A stretch of 64,000 nt of DNA. It comes from Chloroflexota bacterium (lineage in GTDB: Bacteria; Chloroflexota; Dehalococcoidia; Tepidiformales; Tepidiformaceae). A program made the position numbers and the translations under genes. This document shows, in pieces, positions 23,718 to 42,041 of this stretch (the stretch's first letter is position 1; the number at the start of each line of letters is the position of its first letter). Below the pieces are notes generated by a model that saw nothing but the letters and a program-made list of their open reading frames with translations, did not search any database and was not told where the DNA came from. Where the stretch lies: the NCBI GenBank assembly GCA_016234445.1, contig JACRBT010000004.1:1-64000 (forward strand). The letters are read 5' to 3'.

Positions 23718-24494
23718 GTGGCCACGATCGTTTCCGTGCATTCGTTCCGCGGGGGGACCGGGAAGTCGAACACCTGCGCCAACCTCGCGGTGCTGATGGC
23801 GCGCCGGGGCCGCCGCGTGGGAGTGGTCGACGCGGACATCCAGTCGCCGGGGATCCATGTCCTCTTCGGCCTGCGGGGCGACGACATCACGGTCTCGCTG
23901 AATGACTACCTCTGGGGGCGGGCTTCGATCACAGACACAGCGCGGAAGGTCTACTCGGCGGAAGGCGGGGGCGAGGTCTACCTGATCCCGGCGAGTATGA
24001 AGACGAACGAAATCGTCCAGGTGCTCCGCCAGGGCTACGACATCCGCCGGCTGACGGAGGCGTTCCGGGAACTGACAGAGACGCTGAGCCTGGACGCGAT
24101 GCTGATCGACACGCACCCGGGGCTGAACGAGGAGACGCTGTTTTCGCTGGCGATCTCGACGGCGGTCGTGATGGTGCTTCGCCCGGACCAGCAGGACTAC
24201 GAGGGCACGGGCGTGGCGGTCGAGGTTGCTCGCTCGCTGGAGGTGCCGCGGCTGCTGCTCGTGGTGAACAAGGCGCCCTCGACGCTCGACGCCAGGGCGT
24301 TGAAGGAGCGGCTGGAAGGGACATTCCACTGCACGGTGGCGGCAGTGTTGCCGCACAGCGACGAGATGATGACGCTTGGGAGCGCGGACGTCTTCGCCAA
24401 CAAGTACCCGAACGACCCGATCACGCGCGCACTCGACGGGGTGGTGGAGATGCTCCTCGCGGAAACGGACACAGGCCCGGACGGGACGGCATAG
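23718..24494 (+). CDS. MinD/ParA-family ATPase
   Basis: A 258-residue deviant-Walker P-loop ATPase (residues 9-17 FRGGTGKSN, then VGVVDADIQSPG and IDTHPGLNEET), the fold of proteins that position or segregate cell components by ATP-driven membrane or DNA association. GTG23718 follows GGGGGAGA. The stop is directly adjacent to the ATG of the next gene, so it forms an operon with the patatin and GAF genes. No ParB or MinE partner is present, so a plasmid/chromosome segregation role is not supported; it more resembles cargo-positioning or signalling MinD-like proteins. Confidence 0.88.
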   Translation: MATIVSVHSFRGGTGKSNTCANLAVLMARRGRRVGVVDADIQSPGIHVLFGLRGDDITVSLNDYLWGRASITDTARKVYSAEGGGEVYLIPASMKTNEIVQVLRQGYDIRRLTEAFRELTETLSLDAMLIDTHPGLNEETLFSLAISTAVVMVLRPDQQDYEGTGVAVEVARSLEVPRLLLVVNKAPSTLDARALKERLEGTFHCTVAAVLPHSDEMMTLGSADVFANKYPNDPITRALDGVVEMLLAETDTGPDGTA

Positions 24495-26774
24495 ATGGCT
24501 GATTCGAACTCCGTCTCGCGGGCCGACATTCTCCTGGGCCGCCTTTCCCTGGAGCGGCGGGCGGCGCGCGTGCTCGGGACCGTCGAGGCCCGCGTCGCCC
24601 ACATGCGGACGGAGACGCGCCATGCGGTGCAGGCGCTCTTCAGCGGGCGCGAAGATGAGTTCACCCGGACGTTTGGCGACGACTATCTGCGATCGTTGAA
24701 GATGACCGCGCGCTTCGCCGACGCCCCGCGGGTGGAGGACATCGAGCGGTTCGCCCGCCATTGGCGGCCGCTGGTGCCGCCGGAGCCGGAAGTCCGGGCC
24801 GCGGTTATCCAGGCCATGAACGCGCGCTACGGGGTGTCACCGGGGACGGCGCCGCTGTCGTTCGAGTCGATGGGCTACGGCGACCCGGCGGTTGGCGAGG
24901 CGTATCAGCGGCTCTTTGGGGCGGCCCTCGACGCGGCCGCCCTCCCGGGGCGCGAGGAGCCAACCGCGGCCGCCGTGACCGAGGACGGGGACCTGGAGAA
25001 CCAGGCACTCCGGGACGCCGAGGCGGCGCTCGACTGGCTGAGCGTGCCGGCCGGGACGGTGCTGATGCGAGAAGGAGACCAGCCCGACTACCTCTACTTC
25101 GTCATCAGCGGCAGGCTCAGGGTCGCGGCGGGGTATGGGCGCGAACAACGGGTAATCGCCGACCTTGGGCGGGGAGAGCTCGTCGGGGAGATTGGCGTCC
25201 TGACCGGGGAACCGCGGACGGCCAACGTCACAGCGATGCGCGACAGCGAGGTGGTCCGGCTGCCCCAGGCGGAAGTGCTGCGGATGGCGCACCAATCGCC
25301 GCAAATGCTGCTGCGAGTCAACCACATCCTCGCTCAGCGCCTGCGGGTGGAGCTTTCGCCACGGCACCGGACGGGCTCGTCGCAGCTGACGCTGGCGGTC
25401 GTGGGGCTAAGCCCCGGCGTGCCGGTACGCGAACTGGCGGCGCGGCTGGTGGAGGAACTGGCGGCGCTGGGACCCGTCGCGCATGTGAGCAGGGATCGGG
25501 CCGAGGGCGAGTTCCCCCGGCTGCGGACCGCGGACCCATCGCAAGACGGGGAGCTCCTTGCATGGCTGAGCGAGCAGGAGGCCCGGCACCAGTTCGTCGT
25601 GTTCGAAGCGGACCGCGAACCGGGTCAGTGGACAGACCTCTGCATACGCCAGGCAGACCGGATCGCCCTGGTCGCCGACGAGAGCTCGGGGCCCGCGCTG
25701 ACGCCGGCCGAGGAGCGGGTAGCGGCGCTCAACGGCAGCGCGCGTCGGGAACTCGTGATCCTTCGGCCGTCGACGGAGGCGCACCCGAACGACACGCGCC
25801 GCTGGCTGGGGACGCGCCAGGTGGCGGCGCATCACAACGTCGTCCTTGCCGAGCGGGCGCACGTGGCGAGGTTCGCGCGGCGGCTGGTCGGGCAGGCGAT
25901 TGGGCTCGTGCTCGGCGGCGGCGGGGTGCGCGGGTATGCGCACATCGGCGCGTGGCGGGCGTTCGAAGAGGCGGGGATCGCGGTCGACACAATCGGGGGG
26001 ACGAGCGTGGGCGCAATCGTGGCGGCAGGCATCGCCACCGATCGCGACGCGGAAGCGATGGAGAGGCTCGGAAGAACGTTCGCCGAAGGCGGCATCACCG
26101 ACCTGACGTTGCCGATGGTTTCGTTCTTCCAGACCCGGAAGCTGACGTCGCTGCTTCGGAAGCACACCGAGAACCTGCGGATCGAAGACCTCTGGCGGCC
26201 GTTCTTCTGCATCTCGACATCGCTGACCCGCGCGGAGCCGGTGGTGCATTCGGAGGGGCCCCTGTGGCGGGCAGCACGGGCCAGCTCGGCCATCCCGGGG
26301 CTGTTCGCCCCGGTGACGGGGGCGAACGGCGACCTGCTGGTGGACGGGGGCATCATGAACAACGTCCCCGTGGATTCCATGCGGGCCGCGTGCGAACGCG
26401 GCCCGGTTATCGCGATCAATCTGAGCCCGCAGGTGGAGCACTCGGACGACTACCGCCTGGGACCCTCCGTGTCAGGCTGGCGGATTCTCTGGAGCCGGCT
26501 CAACCCGCTGGTGAAGCCGATCCAGGCGCCGTCGATCTTCACCACGCTGCTTCGCACAACGGAAGCCGGGAGCATTCACCGGATGCGGACGGGACAGGTG
26601 CTGGGGATGGCCGACCTCCTCATCAACCCGCCGATGGAGAAGTCCGGGCTGCTCGACTTTCGCAACTACGACGGGCTGGTGAAGGTTGGCTACGAGGCGA
26701 CGAAAGCCGCCCTCGACCAGTGGCTCGCGGAGAACCCGGAACTGAAGCAGCGCCTCGGCGTGAAACCCGCGTAG
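24495..26774 (+). CDS. cNMP-binding NTE-type patatin lipase/esterase
   Basis: A 759-residue protein. Residues 1-170 are a helical region of unknown kind; about 185-300 form a cyclic-nucleotide-binding domain (MREGDQPDYLYFVISGRLRV, GELVGEIGVLTGEPRTANVTA); about 305-460 resemble the central part of NTE-like proteins; and about 468-720 are the patatin domain with oxyanion loop GGGGVRGYAH, nucleophile S504 (GGTSVG) and catalytic D617 (VDGG). It should hydrolyse phospholipid or lysophospholipid ester bonds under control of a nucleotide or other small ligand. Neighbours are a MinD-like ATPase (0 bp) and a membrane GAF sensor (1 bp). Confidence 0.9.
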   Translation: MADSNSVSRADILLGRLSLERRAARVLGTVEARVAHMRTETRHAVQALFSGREDEFTRTFGDDYLRSLKMTARFADAPRVEDIERFARHWRPLVPPEPEVRAAVIQAMNARYGVSPGTAPLSFESMGYGDPAVGEAYQRLFGAALDAAALPGREEPTAAAVTEDGDLENQALRDAEAALDWLSVPAGTVLMREGDQPDYLYFVISGRLRVAAGYGREQRVIADLGRGELVGEIGVLTGEPRTANVTAMRDSEVVRLPQAEVLRMAHQSPQMLLRVNHILAQRLRVELSPRHRTGSSQLTLAVVGLSPGVPVRELAARLVEELAALGPVAHVSRDRAEGEFPRLRTADPSQDGELLAWLSEQEARHQFVVFEADREPGQWTDLCIRQADRIALVADESSGPALTPAEERVAALNGSARRELVILRPSTEAHPNDTRRWLGTRQVAAHHNVVLAERAHVARFARRLVGQAIGLVLGGGGVRGYAHIGAWRAFEEAGIAVDTIGGTSVGAIVAAGIATDRDAEAMERLGRTFAEGGITDLTLPMVSFFQTRKLTSLLRKHTENLRIEDLWRPFFCISTSLTRAEPVVHSEGPLWRAARASSAIPGLFAPVTGANGDLLVDGGIMNNVPVDSMRAACERGPVIAINLSPQVEHSDDYRLGPSVSGWRILWSRLNPLVKPIQAPSIFTTLLRTTEAGSIHRMRTGQVLGMADLLINPPMEKSGLLDFRNYDGLVKVGYEATKAALDQWLAENPELKQRLGVKPA

Positions 26775-26775
26775 A

Positions 26776-28767
26776 ATGGCGCCAATGGTGGATAGCCCCG
26801 CGGACCCGGCCCCTCTTGCCCTGACGCGGATGCTCGGGCGCCCGTTTGGGACCGACGAGCAGGGCCGGCCGATCGACCACGGCAGCGGGAAGCTGATCGT
26901 TGGCGCGGTAGAGTGGTTGAAGCACTGCGTGGCGGCGAGAGCAGCGGCCGAAGCGCCCCCGGGACTTCCGGCCCCAGAACTGGCAACGCGCGTGGAGGAA
27001 GCTCAAGACCGAGCGATCGAACGGCTGGTCGTCATGTTGAACGCGGCAATCGACGACCCCCGCTACTGGATCACCCGGGATTACCTGCTCAACGAGCGAA
27101 ACCGCTATTCCTACGAATTCCGCCTGTTCGTAGCCGAATACTGCCGGGTCATCTCCGGGGACACGGCCTTCTTTCAGCACGCGGGGGCGCGGGCGATCCC
27201 GGGGGCGGTGAGCCTGCTCGGGCGGCCCCTGGGGATTCAGCGAACCTACGCGGTCTTGCCGAAGTTCACGGCGAAGTTCGTGAGGACCGACCTGCGAGTC
27301 GTGCACACGACTCCCACTTCCGCCGTGATCCGGTGGTACGGCGCCGACCAGACGGAGTTCGTCCCCCCGCCGCACCGCGACGCCTACGTCCGATACGCCT
27401 GCGCGGCCTACCGCGGGGGTTACGCAGCGATTCCCACGCACGTCTTCGGGCTGCCAGGCGCCGCGGTTGAGGAGCTGCGTTGTCAGTCGGACGGGTCGGA
27501 CTACTGCGAGTGGCGCTTCGACTGGGTGAACGCAGACGTGGCCGCGGGCAAGTGGCTGTTGCTCGGCGGGGGCGTGGCGACCGTGGCGCTGCTTGGTGCG
27601 GTAGCAGCGGGGCTGCCCGGGGCCGCCGTCCTCGGGTTTGGCGGGGCGCTGATCCCCGTGGGAGTCGCCTGGCACGTCCGTTCGACGGCCCGCGTCGGCG
27701 CCCACCGGGACGTGCTCCAGAAGCAGCTGATGGAGGAACGCGACCTCGCCGAGGAAGAGTACGACAAGAGCGAGCAGGCGAATGCGAACCTGCAGATGGC
27801 AAACGTCGAGCTCACACAGCGGATCTCTGAGCTCACCATCCTCCACGAGGCCGCACTGACGCTGAGCACCACGCTCGAGGTCGATGCGATCCTCGACCAG
27901 GCGTTGACCGCGGTCGTCCGGCACCTCGGGTTCGACCGCGCCCTGGCGATGCTTGGCGACGACGAGCAGGAGGTGCTGCACCGCTGCCGGGCAGTCGGGG
28001 GCACGGAGGAGATGGCGGCGAGGCTCGACGCGCTGGAACTGCCCTACTCGCTCGACGTGTCGCAGTTGGTGCAGGCGTTCCATGCGAAAGAACCGCTGCT
28101 TTTCGAACACGTAGACCAGGACCCGCACGAGGGCAACCGGAACCTGGCGCGGGCACTGGGCGCGAGTTCGTTCATCGCGACACCACTCATCACCAAGGGG
28201 CGGCATGTGGGTGTGCTCGCCGTCGACAACGGCCTCACGGGGCGGACGCTCGACCGGGGGAGTATGTCGCTGCTGCTGACGCTCGGGAGGCAGGTGGCGG
28301 CCGCGATCGAGACGGCCCGGCTGTACGCGGAAGTCGAAGCGCAGAACAGGAACCTGGAAGAGCGGGTCGCGGCGCGGACCGCTGAACTGGAAACGACGAC
28401 CGCTGACCTGGGACGCGAACTCGCAGAGCGGCGCCGCCTGCGGGAGCGCGAGCTGGAGTACCTCGCGCAGGTCAACCGGGTGGTGGCGGCCGCCGGCGCG
28501 GTGGAAGCCGACGCGTTTGACCCGCGCTCGCTGGATGAGACGGCGGCGCGTGGCGACGAACTCGGGCAGCTGGCGCGCACGTTCCAGCGGATGGCAGGGC
28601 ACATGATCGAGCGGGAGTACCGGCTGAAGCAGGAAGTGCTCGAACTCCGCATCGAAATCGACAGCGCCCGCCAGGCGAAGCAAGTCGCGGAGATCGTCGA
28701 TACCGAGTACTTCAGAGAACTCCGGGCGCAAGCGCGGGACCTCCGCCGGATCGTTACGAAGGCCTGA
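26776..28767 (+). CDS. Membrane sensor with V4R-like and GAF domains, no output domain
   Basis: A 663-residue protein. Residues about 100-250 look like a 4-vinyl-reductase (V4R)-type ligand domain, ending in the typical Cys motif LRCQSDGSDYCEWRF. Two transmembrane segments lie at about 258-300, then a coiled coil (about 310-355), a GAF domain (about 355-515; ELTILHEAALTLSTTLEVD, ATPLITKGRHVGVLAVDNG), a second coiled coil, and a HAMP-like stretch (RGDELGQLARTFQRMAGHM). No kinase, cyclase or GGDEF domain follows, so the signal must pass to a partner, perhaps the adjoining patatin or ATPase. Start is ATG26776 or ATG26785. Confidence 0.8.
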   Translation: MAPMVDSPADPAPLALTRMLGRPFGTDEQGRPIDHGSGKLIVGAVEWLKHCVAARAAAEAPPGLPAPELATRVEEAQDRAIERLVVMLNAAIDDPRYWITRDYLLNERNRYSYEFRLFVAEYCRVISGDTAFFQHAGARAIPGAVSLLGRPLGIQRTYAVLPKFTAKFVRTDLRVVHTTPTSAVIRWYGADQTEFVPPPHRDAYVRYACAAYRGGYAAIPTHVFGLPGAAVEELRCQSDGSDYCEWRFDWVNADVAAGKWLLLGGGVATVALLGAVAAGLPGAAVLGFGGALIPVGVAWHVRSTARVGAHRDVLQKQLMEERDLAEEEYDKSEQANANLQMANVELTQRISELTILHEAALTLSTTLEVDAILDQALTAVVRHLGFDRALAMLGDDEQEVLHRCRAVGGTEEMAARLDALELPYSLDVSQLVQAFHAKEPLLFEHVDQDPHEGNRNLARALGASSFIATPLITKGRHVGVLAVDNGLTGRTLDRGSMSLLLTLGRQVAAAIETARLYAEVEAQNRNLEERVAARTAELETTTADLGRELAERRRLRERELEYLAQVNRVVAAAGAVEADAFDPRSLDETAARGDELGQLARTFQRMAGHMIEREYRLKQEVLELRIEIDSARQAKQVAEIVDTEYFRELRAQARDLRRIVTKA

Positions 28768-28773
28768 CGGGAG

Positions 28774-31260
28774 TCAGCGCCGGCGCCGGCGGAAGAGCGA
28801 GGTGCGGGAGTCCTTGCGCACCTGCACCACCACGGTCGCAGCGCTGAAGAGGATGCTAAATCCCGCGAGGACGGCCCAGCGGGAGGCCTCGCTGATGGCG
28901 AAAGCGCCTTCATACGGGCGGTATTCCAGCTGAACCTCGACGGGGTCGGCCTGGCCGGTGACCTTGAGGCGCTGGACCGACTGGGCTGCCAGGCGGTCTT
29001 CAAGGCCGGTGATGCTGCCGCCGAGCTCGAGCCCCCATTTCGTGGTGGTGAACTGGGAGGCGACGCTCGACACCGGGCTCATCTCCGACTTGGGGATGGT
29101 GGCGCCGGCGAAGATGAGCTGGGGGATCAGGGCGAGGATGACCAGGATGGCGGCGCGGTCGGCGTTGGCGCTGACGGCGGAGATGAGCATCCCCATGGTT
29201 GCGCCGGCGAAGGAGACGAGGGCGAGGAGCGCCCCCAGCTGGAGCAGGGTTTCTCCGGTGGGCGACGGGAAGTCCACCTTCAGCGAAAGCACGGCAATGA
29301 AGAGGAAGCCCTGGAAGATGGCGAAGGCCGCGGCCACGGCGACCTTCGAGAACACGTAGGCCGCGGGGGACAGCCCGACGAGCCGTTCGCGGCGGAAGAC
29401 GCCGGCCTCGCCGGTGATCGCGTTGGCCGAAGTGAAGGCGCCGAGGAAGAGGGTGATGGCACAGGCGAGATAGAGCAGGATCACCGCCTGTTGGGCGTTG
29501 CCGCCGTCGGCGCGAAGGGGCTCGAAGACGGCGGCTTCGAAGCTCCCGGTGAGGATGGCCGCGAGGATCGGGGCGCCGGCGAGGCGGAGGGCCAGGTTCA
29601 CGCGGTCGCGCGAAAGGAGGCGCGCGTTCCGGCGGACGAGCTGGCCGAACTGGCCGATTGCACCGAGCGTCCGCGGGCGCGCTGAGCTGTCGCCGGCGTC
29701 GCGGGATTCACGGCGAAGGTCGTGGAGGGCGTGGAGGGCGTCCCGGCGGCGGAAAGCGGGCGATTCGCGGTAGCGTTCCACACCCTCCCGGGGGTCACCG
29801 CCGAGGGCCGCGTAGACGTCGGCGAAGTCGTCAACCTTGAAGTGGTCCAGGGCCTCGCCGGGGGAACCGTCGAAGACGACGTGGCCTCGGTTGACGGCGA
29901 TCACGCGGTCGCAGAGACGGATGTTCCGGGTGGCGTGGGTGGTGATGACGATGGTGCGGCCTTCGTCGGCGAGCTCGCGAAGCTGCAGCATGAGGGCCGC
30001 GTCGAGGCCGGGGTCGAGGCCGGAGGTTGGCTCGTCGAGGAAGACGACGCCGGGATCGGTCAGGAGCTCGGCGGCGATGCAGGCGCGCTTCCGCTGGCCG
30101 CCACTGAGCTTGCCTACCAGGAGGTCGGCCTGGAGTTCGAGATGAAGCCGGTGAAGGAGCCCGGCGATGCGCTGGTCGACATCGGACCGGAGCGTGCCGG
30201 GAGGAAGCCTGAGGCCCGCGGCGAACCTCAGCGACTCCCGGACGGTGAGTTCCTGGTGGACGATGTCGTATTGCGGCACGTACCCGAGGATGGAGCGGAG
30301 CCGGGCCGGGTCCTGGGCGATGGGCACGCCGCCGTAAAGGACTTCGCCGGCGGAGCGGGGCACGAGGGCGATCAGCGCGTTCAGGAGCGTGCTCTTGCCG
30401 GCGCCCGAGGGCCCGACGATAGCGACGAGCTCGCCGGGCTCGATGGAGACGTCGACATCCGTGAGGAGGTCGCGCTCGCCGATCCGGACGCCAAGGCCGC
30501 GGGATTCGACAGCGACGCCGACGCCGGCTGGCGCGCGGTAGAGCACGCGATCGCGCAGGTACAAGCGCACGGAAGCGAGGCGAAGGGTGTCCCCCTCGGC
30601 CAGGGGGGCTTCGTGGATGGGGTTTCGATTCAGGAGTGTCCCGGTGGCGCTCCCGCCGTCGACGACGACCCACTGGCCGTCGCGCGAGATGAGGGTCGCG
30701 TGGACGGCGGCGATGCCGGGGTCGGCGAGGACGACTTCGTTGGCCGATTCGCTGCCAATCCGGATGGGGCCGTCGCCGGAGAGGACGGCGAGGGCGCGGC
30801 CGCCAGCCGGCCGGGGCGCCTCGGCAAGGCGGACGGCAACGACGCGGCGAATTTCGTCGTCCAGTTCGGGCCGGGCGCGGACCAGCGCCTCGAAGCGCTC
30901 CCGAGAGATGGCGGCGACGCGGCTGGGTCCATCGCTGGTCACAGAGGCGTTGCGAGGGTCCCCGGTGACAAGGGCCATTTCGCCGAACACGTCCCCGGCC
31001 CCCAGTCTTGCGAGGAAGACGGCAGTGCCGTTGGCGTCGTGGGCAACCTCCACCTGGCCTTCGAGGATGACGAACATGGCGTCGCCCGGGTCGCCTTCGC
31101 GGACGATGGTGTCCCCGGCGGCGAACTCGCGGACGGTGACCGAAGCGGCCAGTTCATCCATCTCGTCGGCGTCGAGAGGCGCGAACCAGGCGACGCGGGC
31201 GAATCGGGCCCTCACGGCGTCGCGGGTGTCGTCGGTAAGGGCAGGGCCGGCCACGGTCAT
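28774..31260 (-). CDS. ABC exporter with N-terminal cNMP-binding and FHA domains
   Basis: An 828-residue ABCG-type half-transporter. Residues about 20-150 form a cyclic-nucleotide-binding domain (IVREGDPGDAMFVILEGQVEV, FGEMALVTGDPRNASVT); about 165-250 an FHA phosphothreonine-binding domain (IRIGSESANEVVL, HATLI); about 258-490 an ATPase (Walker A GPSGAGKST, signature LSGGQRKR, Walker B VVFLDEPTSGLD); and about 545-815 an ABC2 membrane domain with six segments. It probably exports a lipid or hydrophobic compound as a homodimer. It is convergent with the ParA-patatin-GAF operon, with 6 bp between stops, and shares the cNMP-binding domain with the patatin. Confidence 0.92.
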   Translation of the reverse strand: MTVAGPALTDDTRDAVRARFARVAWFAPLDADEMDELAASVTVREFAAGDTIVREGDPGDAMFVILEGQVEVAHDANGTAVFLARLGAGDVFGEMALVTGDPRNASVTSDGPSRVAAISRERFEALVRARPELDDEIRRVVAVRLAEAPRPAGGRALAVLSGDGPIRIGSESANEVVLADPGIAAVHATLISRDGQWVVVDGGSATGTLLNRNPIHEAPLAEGDTLRLASVRLYLRDRVLYRAPAGVGVAVESRGLGVRIGERDLLTDVDVSIEPGELVAIVGPSGAGKSTLLNALIALVPRSAGEVLYGGVPIAQDPARLRSILGYVPQYDIVHQELTVRESLRFAAGLRLPPGTLRSDVDQRIAGLLHRLHLELQADLLVGKLSGGQRKRACIAAELLTDPGVVFLDEPTSGLDPGLDAALMLQLRELADEGRTIVITTHATRNIRLCDRVIAVNRGHVVFDGSPGEALDHFKVDDFADVYAALGGDPREGVERYRESPAFRRRDALHALHDLRRESRDAGDSSARPRTLGAIGQFGQLVRRNARLLSRDRVNLALRLAGAPILAAILTGSFEAAVFEPLRADGGNAQQAVILLYLACAITLFLGAFTSANAITGEAGVFRRERLVGLSPAAYVFSKVAVAAAFAIFQGFLFIAVLSLKVDFPSPTGETLLQLGALLALVSFAGATMGMLISAVSANADRAAILVILALIPQLIFAGATIPKSEMSPVSSVASQFTTTKWGLELGGSITGLEDRLAAQSVQRLKVTGQADPVEVQLEYRPYEGAFAISEASRWAVLAGFSILFSAATVVVQVRKDSRTSLFRRRRR

Positions 31261-38050: not shown

Positions 38051-39579
38051 CGGCCCATCCCCTTCCCGGCGGTGCTGCCTGACATGCGGTCGCGCCAGAC
38101 CGACGGCCCGTAGGTGGCGGCGCGGCCGTTGTGCCCGGCGGCAGCGCCGTTGCCGTTCTGGGCCTGCGGTTCGCCGCTCGTGACGAAGAGCAGGGCGGCG
38201 ATCTCCGCCATGCGTTTCTGATTGTCGAGATGCTCTTCCGTGGCGATTTCATGGCGGTCGAGGAAGCCCGTGTCGAGCCTGCCTTCGATGAAGTCGGGCA
38301 GGTCGAGGATCTGCTGGAGGTAGGGCATGTTGGTGGCGACGCCGACGACCCGGAACTCGGCGAGGGCGCGCTTCATACGGGTGCGGGCGCCTTCGCGGTT
38401 GCGGCCCCAGGCGGTGACCTTGGCGAGGAGCGAGTCGTAGTAGGGGGTCACCTCGACGCCGTCGTAGAGGGCGCTCTCGACGCGGATGCCGGGGCCGGCC
38501 GGCTCGCGGGCCAGCACCACTCGGCCGACGGACGGCAGGAAGTTGTTGAAGGGGTCTTCCGCGACGATCCGGCATTCGATGGCCCAGCCGCGGGTGAGGA
38601 GCTCGTATTCGTCGTAAGGGAGCTCTTCGCCGGCCGCGACCAGGATCTGGTCCTTGACGAGGTCGACGCCGGTCGCGATCTCGGTCACCGGGTGTTCGAC
38701 CTGGAGGCGGGTGTTCATCTCCAGGAAGAACCACTCGCCGTTCTCGGTGAGGAGGAACTCGACGGTGCCGACGCTGTGGTAGTCGGCGGCGCGGGCGATC
38801 TTGGTCGCGGCACGGCCGAGGGAGCGGCGCAGGTCGGGGGTGACCACCGGGCTGGGGCACTCCTCGATGAGCTTCTGATGGCGGCGCTGGATGGAGCATT
38901 CGCGTTCGCCGACAGGGACGATGTTGCCGAACTTGTCGCCGATGATCTGGACTTCGATGTGGCGGACGGGCGAGAGGTTGCGCTCGACGTAGATGGTGGC
39001 GTTTCCGAAAGCGGCCTGGGCTTCCTGCATGGCCCGCATCGCGGCGTCGTGGAAATCCGCGGGGTCCTGGACAAGGCGGATGCCACGCCCGCCACCGCCT
39101 GCGGCCGCCTTGACCATGCAGGGGTATCCCACCCTGTTCGCGGCCGCGAAGGCGTCGTCGATCGAGGTCGTTTCCAGGCTGCCGGGGACAACCGGGATGC
39201 CTGCGGCCATCGCGATCTTGCGGGCGGCGATCTTGTCGCCGAGGGCGCGCATCGACGCCGGCGAAGGGCCGATGAAGGTGAGGCCCGCGCGTTCGCAGGC
39301 TTCGGCGAAGTCGGCGTTTTCGGCGAGGAAACCGTAGCCAGGGTGGATGGCCTCAGCCCCGCAGGCCAGGGCCGTCTCGATGATCTTCGCGCCGTTGAGG
39401 TAGCTTTCGCGGGCGTCGGCCGGGCCGATGTGGTGGGCTTCGTCGGCGTAACGGACGTGCTGGGAGAGCCGGTCGACGTCGGAGTAGACGGCGACCGACT
39501 GGATCCCGAGGTCGCGCAGGCCGCGGACGATGCGGAGGGCGATCTCGCCGCGGTTGGCGATGAGCACTTTGGTGAACAC
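38032..39579 (-). CDS. accC: Biotin carboxylase subunit
   Basis: A 515-residue ATP-grasp enzyme that carboxylates biotin using bicarbonate and ATP. FTKVLIANRGEIALRIVRGLRDLG opens the N-domain, KAAAGGGGRGIR is the ATP-grasp glycine loop, FLEMNTRLQVEHPVTE supplies metal and base residues, and RIVAEDPFNNFLPS follows. The last 65 residues (QNGNGAAAGHNG) are a flexible tail not typical of free AccC and might connect to the carrier protein encoded downstream. Confidence 0.94.
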   Translation of the reverse strand: MFTKVLIANRGEIALRIVRGLRDLGIQSVAVYSDVDRLSQHVRYADEAHHIGPADARESYLNGAKIIETALACGAEAIHPGYGFLAENADFAEACERAGLTFIGPSPASMRALGDKIAARKIAMAAGIPVVPGSLETTSIDDAFAAANRVGYPCMVKAAAGGGGRGIRLVQDPADFHDAAMRAMQEAQAAFGNATIYVERNLSPVRHIEVQIIGDKFGNIVPVGERECSIQRRHQKLIEECPSPVVTPDLRRSLGRAATKIARAADYHSVGTVEFLLTENGEWFFLEMNTRLQVEHPVTEIATGVDLVKDQILVAAGEELPYDEYELLTRGWAIECRIVAEDPFNNFLPSVGRVVLAREPAGPGIRVESALYDGVEVTPYYDSLLAKVTAWGRNREGARTRMKRALAEFRVVGVATNMPYLQQILDLPDFIEGRLDTGFLDRHEIATEEHLDNQKRMAEIAALLFVTSGEPQAQNGNGAAAGHNGRAATYGPSVWRDRMSGSTAGKGMGRWPKSI

Positions 39580-39680
39580 GATACTTCTCTACGTTGCGTC
39601 GATGGGAGCCAAGCATACGCGCCAAGCGGCCAAAGAGGCGAGCGGTGGCACGGGCACCGGCTCGCGGATACGCTTGGCGG

Positions 39681-42041
39681 ATGGACGACCATACGCTCCG
39701 CGTCCTGGAGTTCGACAAGGTGCTGACGATGCTGGCCGACGAAGCCGCCTTCAGCATCGGGCGCGAGCTTGCGTTGGCGGTGCGGCCCGAGACCGAGTTC
39801 GCGGCGGCGCTGGAAGCCCAGTGGGCCACGGCGGAGATGAAGCTCCTGGACCAGATGGGGATCGACGTCCCGTTTGCGGGGGCGAAGGACGTCCGGCCGC
39901 TCATCCACTCGGCGGCGATCGGGCAGGCGCTCGACCCCGGTGACCTCCTCGACACCGCGCAGGTGCTGCGGACCGCCGCCCGGGCGCGGAATGTGGTCGA
40001 GCGGATCCGGGCGCGGGTGCCGAGGCTCGGCGAGATCACCGACGAGATCGGCGACTTCCGGCACTTCACCGACGAGGTGGACGCGGCGATCACGGCGCGC
40101 GGTGACGTGGCGGATTCCGCAAGCGACGCCCTCGCGACGACGCGGAGGGAGCTGAGGGTCGCGCACGACCGCCTGGAACAGCGCGCCCAGGCGGCGCTCG
40201 CGGACGCTGTGCGGCGCGGGATCGCCCAGGAAGGGCTTCTGACCGAGCGCAACGGGCGCAAGGTCATCCCCCTCAAGGCCGACTACCGGGGCCAGATCCA
40301 GGGCATCGTCCACGATGTGTCGTCCAGCGGCGCCACCGTGTTCGTCGAACCAATGGGTGTGGTGGAGGCAGGGAACCAGGTGCGCGAACTCCAGCTGGCG
40401 GAGGAGCGCGAGGTCCGGCGGGTGCTCCAGCGGATCAGCGGGATGCTGGGCGCCCGCGAAGAGGCCGCCCTCGCCACGGTGATGGCGCTGGCGCGGCTCG
40501 ACGTGCTGGTGGCGAAGGTGCGACTGGGGAAGAAGCTCCGGGCCCAGGTGCCGCCGCCGGGGGACGCGGAGAGCTGGCTGCATCCTTCGGGCCGAAGCAT
40601 CATCGTCCGGGGGCGGCACCCGCTCTTGCGAGGGGACGTGGTCCCGACCGACATCGACGTCGGCGGGGACGCGCCGGGTGTGCTGATCACGGGCCCGAAC
40701 ACGGGCGGGAAGACGGTGGCGCTGAAGACGGTGGGCCTGCTGACCTTGATGGCCCAGGCCGGGATTCCCGTTCCCTGCGACGAAGGCAGCCAGTTCACGG
40801 TGTACCCCCGCGTCTACGCCGACATCGGCGACGAACAGTCGATCGAGCAGTCGCTGTCGACGTTTTCGTCGCACATGCGGAACATCACGGCGATCCTGAC
40901 GAAGGCGGCGCCGGGGACGCTCGTGCTGCTCGACGAACTGGGGGCCGGGACCGACCCGGTCGAGGGCGCGGCCCTGGCTCGGGCGATCCTGGAGACGCTG
41001 TTGGAGCGCGGCTGCGCGCTTGTGGCAACGACCCACCACGGCGAACTGAAGGCCTTCGCCCACAGCGATCCGCGGCTGCGCAACGCCTCCGTGGAGTTCG
41101 ACATCGAAACCCTGAGCCCGACCTACCACCTGACGATCGGGCTGCCGGGGCAATCGAACGCGATCGCGATCGCGCGGCGGCTCGGGCTGGACGAAGCTGT
41201 GCTCGAACGGGCCAGCCAGCAGCTTTCTCCGGAGCACTTCGAGTTCGAACAGCTGCTGGCGGAGATCCGGGACGAGCGCGCCGCCGCGGCTGAGGCCCGC
41301 AAGCGGGAGGAGCTCGCCCGGCGGGAGGCGGAGGAACTGCGGCTGGCTCTGGCCGAGCGGCGCGACCGGATCGAGCAGGAGCGGGCAAGCATCCTCCAGA
41401 CGGCGACGCGGGAAGGGGAAGACGCGCTCGCTGACGTGCGGCGGGAACTCGACCAGGTGCGGAGACGGGCCGCGAACCGGGAGTTCGACGCAAGGGCCGC
41501 CGAAGAGACGTTGCGAACCCTCGACGCGAAGCTGGCGAAGGTGGCTGCCCGGGCGCGCCCCCAGCGGCGGGAGGCGGTGCGGCCGGCCGCTCTGAAGGCG
41601 ATCGAACCGGGAGACACCATCCACGTGCGGGACATCCCGCAGCCGGGGGAGGCACTCTCGGCGGAGGGCGAGGACGGCCGCGTCGAGGTCCAGTTCGGAG
41701 GCCTGAGGATGAAGGTCTCGGTGGACCGGATCGACCGGGTTGAGGGCGTGACCCGGGCGCCGGCCCAACCGTCGGTGGTGCCGCTGGGGCCGAGTCCCGG
41801 GGTCGAACTCGACCTCAGGGGCCAACGCGCGGAGGAGGCGCTCCTGCGCTGCGAGACCTACCTCGACGACGCCTTCCGGGCGGGGCTGCCGTTCGTCCGG
41901 ATCATCCACGGGAAGGGCACGGGGGCGTTGCGGGCGGCCATCCGGGAGACGCTGACGGGCCACCCGCTGGTGCGGCGGTTCGAGACCGCGCAGGCGAACG
42001 AAGGCGGCGAAGGCGTGACCATCGCCGTGCTGGCGGGATAA
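39681..42041 (+). CDS. mutS2: Endonuclease MutS2
   Basis: A 786-residue MutS-family ATPase without the mismatch-recognition domain. It has a lever/clamp core, Walker A TGPNTGGKTVALKT (about 335-350), Walker B TLVLLDELGAGTDP, a long coiled coil (about 510-640) and a C-terminal Smr nuclease domain (VELDLRGQRAEEA, RIIHGKGTGALR). MutS2 limits recombination or splits stalled, collided ribosomes in studied bacteria. ATG39681 is chosen because the longer frame upstream lacks family similarity. It overlaps nothing but is 2 bp from rarA. Confidence 0.96.
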   Translation: MDDHTLRVLEFDKVLTMLADEAAFSIGRELALAVRPETEFAAALEAQWATAEMKLLDQMGIDVPFAGAKDVRPLIHSAAIGQALDPGDLLDTAQVLRTAARARNVVERIRARVPRLGEITDEIGDFRHFTDEVDAAITARGDVADSASDALATTRRELRVAHDRLEQRAQAALADAVRRGIAQEGLLTERNGRKVIPLKADYRGQIQGIVHDVSSSGATVFVEPMGVVEAGNQVRELQLAEEREVRRVLQRISGMLGAREEAALATVMALARLDVLVAKVRLGKKLRAQVPPPGDAESWLHPSGRSIIVRGRHPLLRGDVVPTDIDVGGDAPGVLITGPNTGGKTVALKTVGLLTLMAQAGIPVPCDEGSQFTVYPRVYADIGDEQSIEQSLSTFSSHMRNITAILTKAAPGTLVLLDELGAGTDPVEGAALARAILETLLERGCALVATTHHGELKAFAHSDPRLRNASVEFDIETLSPTYHLTIGLPGQSNAIAIARRLGLDEAVLERASQQLSPEHFEFEQLLAEIRDERAAAAEARKREELARREAEELRLALAERRDRIEQERASILQTATREGEDALADVRRELDQVRRRAANREFDARAAEETLRTLDAKLAKVAARARPQRREAVRPAALKAIEPGDTIHVRDIPQPGEALSAEGEDGRVEVQFGGLRMKVSVDRIDRVEGVTRAPAQPSVVPLGPSPGVELDLRGQRAEEALLRCETYLDDAFRAGLPFVRIIHGKGTGALRAAIRETLTGHPLVRRFETAQANEGGEGVTIAVLAG

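Follow-up and report, generated by a model that had tools for sequence, protein, structure and literature searches.

The 64,000-nucleotide stretch analysed here (the window), from contig JACRBT010000004.1 of a Chloroflexota bacterium of the family Tepidiformaceae, contains a three-gene operon encoding a MinD/ParA-like ATPase, a predicted NTE-type patatin phospholipase and a membrane sensor. We think it probable that this operon encodes one form of a modular sensor-to-effector pathway centred on the MinD-like ATPase, for which the C-terminal tail of the sensor and the N-terminal domain of the patatin are strong partner candidates. The pathway is drawn from gene order, common domains and co-occurrence across genomes, from which we infer that the ATPase contacts both tail and N-terminal domain, what is sensed and in which direction control runs. 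Positions 23718-31260 hold four genes (Table 1), and Pfam domains were called with Pfam cut-offs.

Results

The four genes lie where an earlier note, made from this DNA alone, had placed them, and the measured gaps between ATPase, patatin and sensor genes (0 and 1 bp, all on the + strand) confirm the tightly spaced operon that it described. The ATPase matches the Pfam families ParA and AAA_31 above cut-off. Its Walker A motif reads RGGTGKS, with the P-loop Lys retained and the signature Lys of KGGxGK replaced by Arg, and SFRGGTGKS is found in nearly all relatives, again with Arg where ParA and MinD proteins have the signature Lys. Relatives occur in 49 of 400 Chloroflexota genomes (best match per genome 46-61% identical), none of them in the other same-class genomes listed among the 400. 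A scan of species genomes yielded one weak match and 26 close loci, the latter 48-64% identical; these include Thermoleophilia, Rubrobacter, Nitriliruptoraceae, Trueperaceae and Methylomirabilis bins, together with cultured Patulibacter minatonensis and an isolate, Kouleothrix aurantiaca. In the window genome the ATPase, tail and N-terminal-domain families each have exactly one member. Loci L096, L099, L101-L103, L105 and L118 each have two MinD-like genes, adjacent in most, and the second copy lacks RGGTGKS and might be a regulatory partner.

The earlier note, which had left the ATPase without a partner for want of ParB or MinE, overlooked the HAMP domain and tail of the sensor as well as the NTE-type P-loop and N-terminal domains of the patatin. 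The tail consists of about 50 residues at the C-terminal end of the sensor, behind HAMP; residues 556-663 run from HAMP through a coiled stretch to LRIEID...QVAEI.DTEYF..L...A..LR, and no Pfam family of its own matched the tail. Matches to this region stand at the C-termini of many other sensors beside the MinD-like ATPase, among them receiver-HAMP-tail proteins (L133, L126, L137), proteins of cNMP type (L121, L107, L112) and CHASE3-HAMP (L166), cache-HAMP (L170) and GAF (L097) sensors, so that one short, charged element is grafted on very diverse proteins. A tail model matches 52 of the 400 genomes, 47 of which also have the ATPase (Fisher p 6e-53, not corrected for relatedness), and 13 families hold both in one genome. 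A tail gene is present in 40 of the 49 ATPase loci, and in 22 the two genes are no more than 300 bp apart; several of the loci that lack one are interrupted by contig ends. The matches in three of the five tail-only genomes (G172, G303, G368) extend barely past the HAMP half, and these proteins probably have no true tail. Aligning the sensor with tail fragments put the GAF domain in the wrong place, and that alignment was set aside. At L107 (15017-18267), a PrsW protease, a cNMP-tail protein, a MinD-like ATPase, a 70-residue, possibly zinc-binding protein and an unknown 119-residue protein follow one another, possibly a protease-effector version of the module.

The product of the second gene combines cNMP, NTE_Ploop and Patatin domains, all above cut-off, in one chain. 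The catalytic and phosphate-binding residues are in place: E232 and R241 of the cNMP phosphate-binding site are present, and the Ser-Asp dyad is kept as Ser504 (GTSVG) and Asp617 (DGG). The dyad, whose loss in homologues would have refuted the proposal of the earlier note, is likewise kept in the patatins of two related loci, L115 and L133. The NTE-type patatin is the likely output, and the statement that none of the genes has an obvious one is not supported in that form. The domain set and dyad are common to the NTE family (PNPLA6/7) and its bacterial homologues; the window patatin differs in having a single cNMP domain and an extra N-terminal helical domain tied to the MinD-like ATPase. NTE-type enzymes deacylate (lyso)phosphatidylcholine to glycerophosphocholine (PMC9025805), and the gene for a glycerophosphodiester phosphodiesterase (GDPD) that the L133 version adds fits such an output because glycerophosphodiesters would be its products.

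The extra domain, residues 1-155, matches the N-termini of amino-acid-permease-like proteins beside the ATPase. It occurs in nine of the 400 Chloroflexota genomes, all nine among the 49 with the ATPase, and in eight it shares a contig with the ATPase. Among 21 loci, it is encoded within 300 bp of the ATPase gene in 18, with the same strand in all; because those loci were picked via the ATPase, this proximity is not independent evidence, and the 400-genome count serves as the independent test. An AlphaFold model of the domain is all-helical, with a predicted local distance difference test score (pLDDT) of 80. The domain matched no Pfam family of its own, and a fold search gave no confident structural relative; an annexin-repeat-like stretch at residues ~90-154 (Z up to 4.9; sequence E 0.09 to 6b3i) was too weak to use. 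Related operons in several phyla have a different sensor, or a transporter instead of the lipase, which points to a modular way of passing a signal on to membrane proteins.

The sensor has GAF and HAMP domains by Pfam and, as foreseen, neither a kinase nor a cyclase. Of its description as a V4R-GAF membrane protein, the GAF domain and the hydrophobic segments stand, and V4R falls below cut-off (E 0.03 for the whole protein, 0.011 for its N-terminal part); yet the same weak match recurs in the L133 sensor, the two scoring 14.9-16.2 bits against a cut-off of 31. A structure predicted from two sequences was of low confidence, with a pLDDT of 51. At L133, from Anaerolineae, the order is a V4R-transmembrane-GAF-histidine kinase-receivers protein, a receiver-HAMP-tail protein, the ATPase, a patatin with the N-terminal domain, and GDPD. 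The kinase is 37% identical to the window sensor over 517 residues, across V4R, transmembrane and GAF parts. Because that kinase matches the input half and a separate receiver protein carries HAMP and tail, the window sensor looks, by sequence, like kinase input and receiver-protein output fused, with the phosphorelay removed. At L115, from Dehalococcoidia, ATPase and patatin are followed, in the window order, by the first residues of a V4R sensor, where the contig ends. A V4R sensor thus accompanies all three patatin versions (window, L133, L115) and no permease version, and none was found in other genomes among the 171 sampled.

Table 1. Coordinates of genes and domains within the window.
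Feature	Position	Strand	Description
MinD/ParA-like ATPase	23718..24494	+	258 residues; deviant Walker A SFRGGTGKSN, Arg replaces signature Lys
NTE-type patatin phospholipase (predicted)	24495..26774	+	759 residues; N-terminal domain, cNMP, NTE P-loop, patatin
N-terminal all-helical domain of patatin, ~residues 5-155	24507..24959	+	Proposed docking domain; also on amino-acid-permease-like proteins beside MinD-like genes
cNMP-binding domain of patatin, residues 183-267	25041..25295	+	Phosphate-binding E232/R241 retained
Patatin catalytic domain, residues 471-628	25905..26378	+	Ser504/Asp617 retained
Membrane sensor	26776..28767	+	663 residues; V4R-like, two hydrophobic segments, GAF, HAMP, tail
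HAMP and C-terminal output tail of sensor, residues 556-663	28441..28764	+	Ending LRIEIDSARQAKQVAEIVDTEYFRELRAQARDLR...
cNMP-FHA-ABC-ABC2 exporter	28774..31260	-	828 residues; convergent; looser associate

Discussion

The modular pathway that we favour would begin at the membrane, where the V4R-like, transmembrane and GAF parts of the sensor may detect a hydrophobic or small ligand. The resulting conformational change would pass through HAMP to the C-terminal tail, which would bind or trigger the MinD-like ATPase; in related operons, receiver-HAMP-tail or cNMP-HAMP-tail proteins would do the same job. Depending on its nucleotide state, the ATPase could then act on the N-terminal helical domain of the effector and so determine how active the effector is or where it lies at the membrane. 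Here the effector would be the predicted NTE-type (lyso)phospholipase, which a cyclic nucleotide probably gates as well; in most relatives with the N-terminal domain it is an amino-acid-permease-like protein. The earlier suggestion of one functional unit at the membrane, with a sensor free of kinase and cyclase and an intact patatin, is supported. Histidine kinases and receivers are frequent partners in ATPase neighbourhoods of relatives, and the related operons, with their hybrid histidine kinases and receiver-HAMP-tail proteins, resemble two-component signalling; the window proteins have neither kinase nor receiver by Pfam, and their output apparently goes to the ATPase and not to DNA or a cyclase.

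Short partner peptides, attached to a variety of domains, drive ParA/MinD ATPases; these ATPases position cargo, and the peptides of their activating proteins are short and basic (PMC7993993), which the tail would fit. The window ATPase resembles those of the MinDE, ParAB, PomXZ and McdAB systems in its MinD-like sequence, its intact P-loop and its one small, putative partner element on diverse proteins. It differs in the Arg that replaces the signature Lys, in a candidate partner that is the C-terminal end of a sensor, and in a cargo or target that would be an enzyme or transporter. The likeness also suits a localisation system, in which the ATPase would bring patatin or permease to a particular site on the membrane or to a pole, with the tail as its activating partner and enzyme activity left unswitched; a short, charged tail on very diverse sensors fits this reading. 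However, the known activating peptides are N-terminal and the tail is C-terminal, and the frequent histidine kinase and receiver partners point to control that depends on a signal more than to a fixed placement; we regard localisation as unlikely.

Several observations weigh against the sensor-to-effector pathway. The V4R identity is weak and the structure model of the sensor poor; at L133 the tail sits on the receiver protein and not on the V4R protein; and no fold could be recognised for the N-terminal domain. Over half of the ATPase loci show no such domain, which means either that other effectors are coupled in another way or that the link is indirect. The known patatin versions number only three, two of them on short contigs of metagenome-assembled genomes. 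Finally, patatin versions fall in two places among permease versions in the MinD tree, which indicates that the patatin combination has been rearranged at least once, with effectors exchanged.

Whether the MinD-like ATPase is a general relay, from interchangeable tail-sharing sensors to interchangeable membrane effectors (permeases, NTE-type lipases, perhaps proteases) in Chloroflexota, Actinomycetota and Deinococcota, we consider evenly balanced. If so, it would form a new class of bacterial signal transduction, in which ATPases of the MinD/ParA group, otherwise known for positioning, carry a sensed signal by a new route to an output at the membrane, and it would place bacterial relatives of the human nerve esterase NTE in a regulatory setting. 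Known families account for the MinD-like ATPase, patatin, GAF, HAMP and exporter domains, and their combination is undescribed in the literature covered: we found no published description of the module in open-access sources, with most subscription journals outside that coverage.

The fourth gene is, as had been noted, convergent and rich in domains (Pfam cNMP, FHA, ABC_tran and ABC2_membrane; - strand), its stop lying 6 bp from that of the sensor. Of the four genes, MinD, patatin and V4R sensor recur together at L115 and L133, so that for these three the separation in related genomes that would have refuted the earlier note was not seen; the exporter was seen beside no other MinD module. With FHA fused to ABC and ABC2 membrane domains it resembles mycobacterial Rv1747, from which it differs in that cNMP replaces the second FHA, the FHA contacts are degenerate and no kinase is a neighbour; by eye, IGS and IAAVH take the place of the GR and SRxH phosphothreonine motifs.

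In this family the exporter is likely linked to other NTE-type patatins. In the same-family genome G014 the gene for such a patatin runs into the start of the exporter gene, with a class III cyclase-AAA-TPR gene upstream, and in G003, of the same family, two NTE-type patatins precede an N-terminal piece of the exporter. Together with nine class III cyclase matches in the window genome, these arrangements would suit a lipid-remodelling and export block of the kind that the earlier note proposed, in which the patatin cleaves a lipid, the exporter moves the product and one cyclic nucleotide governs both. Yet the exporter-adjacent patatins, which group in a clade of their own, do not have the N-terminal domain, the exporter has orthologues in only 4 of 38 members of the order, and its FHA domain lacks the usual phosphate contacts; with the convergent, unrepeated placement in the window, this makes the block improbable. 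A Pycsar- or CBASS-type anti-phage system with a cyclic-nucleotide-activated patatin, suggested by PADLOC, in which the cNMP domain weakly matches Pycsar effectors and the patatin weakly matches CBASS phospholipases, is very improbable indeed, since those matches are at domain level only, none of the four proteins has a cyclase domain (the genome's class III matches all lie on other contigs), the patatin is NTE-type, and two-component partners and transporter-bearing versions do not fit it.

In a same-family genome, the class III cyclase-AAA-TPR gene at L034 (8084-11518, - strand) immediately precedes genes for a cNMP patatin and the cNMP-FHA-ABC exporter. Elsewhere in the window, positions 38718-41963 (- strand) hold a 1082-residue open frame with no Pfam match, which may be a real protein or a high-G+C artefact. 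The G+C content of the operon (0.67-0.70, against 0.69 for the window) gave no signal of recent transfer by base composition; with the ATPase missing from the other same-class genomes sampled, older transfer, or loss, may account for its distribution.
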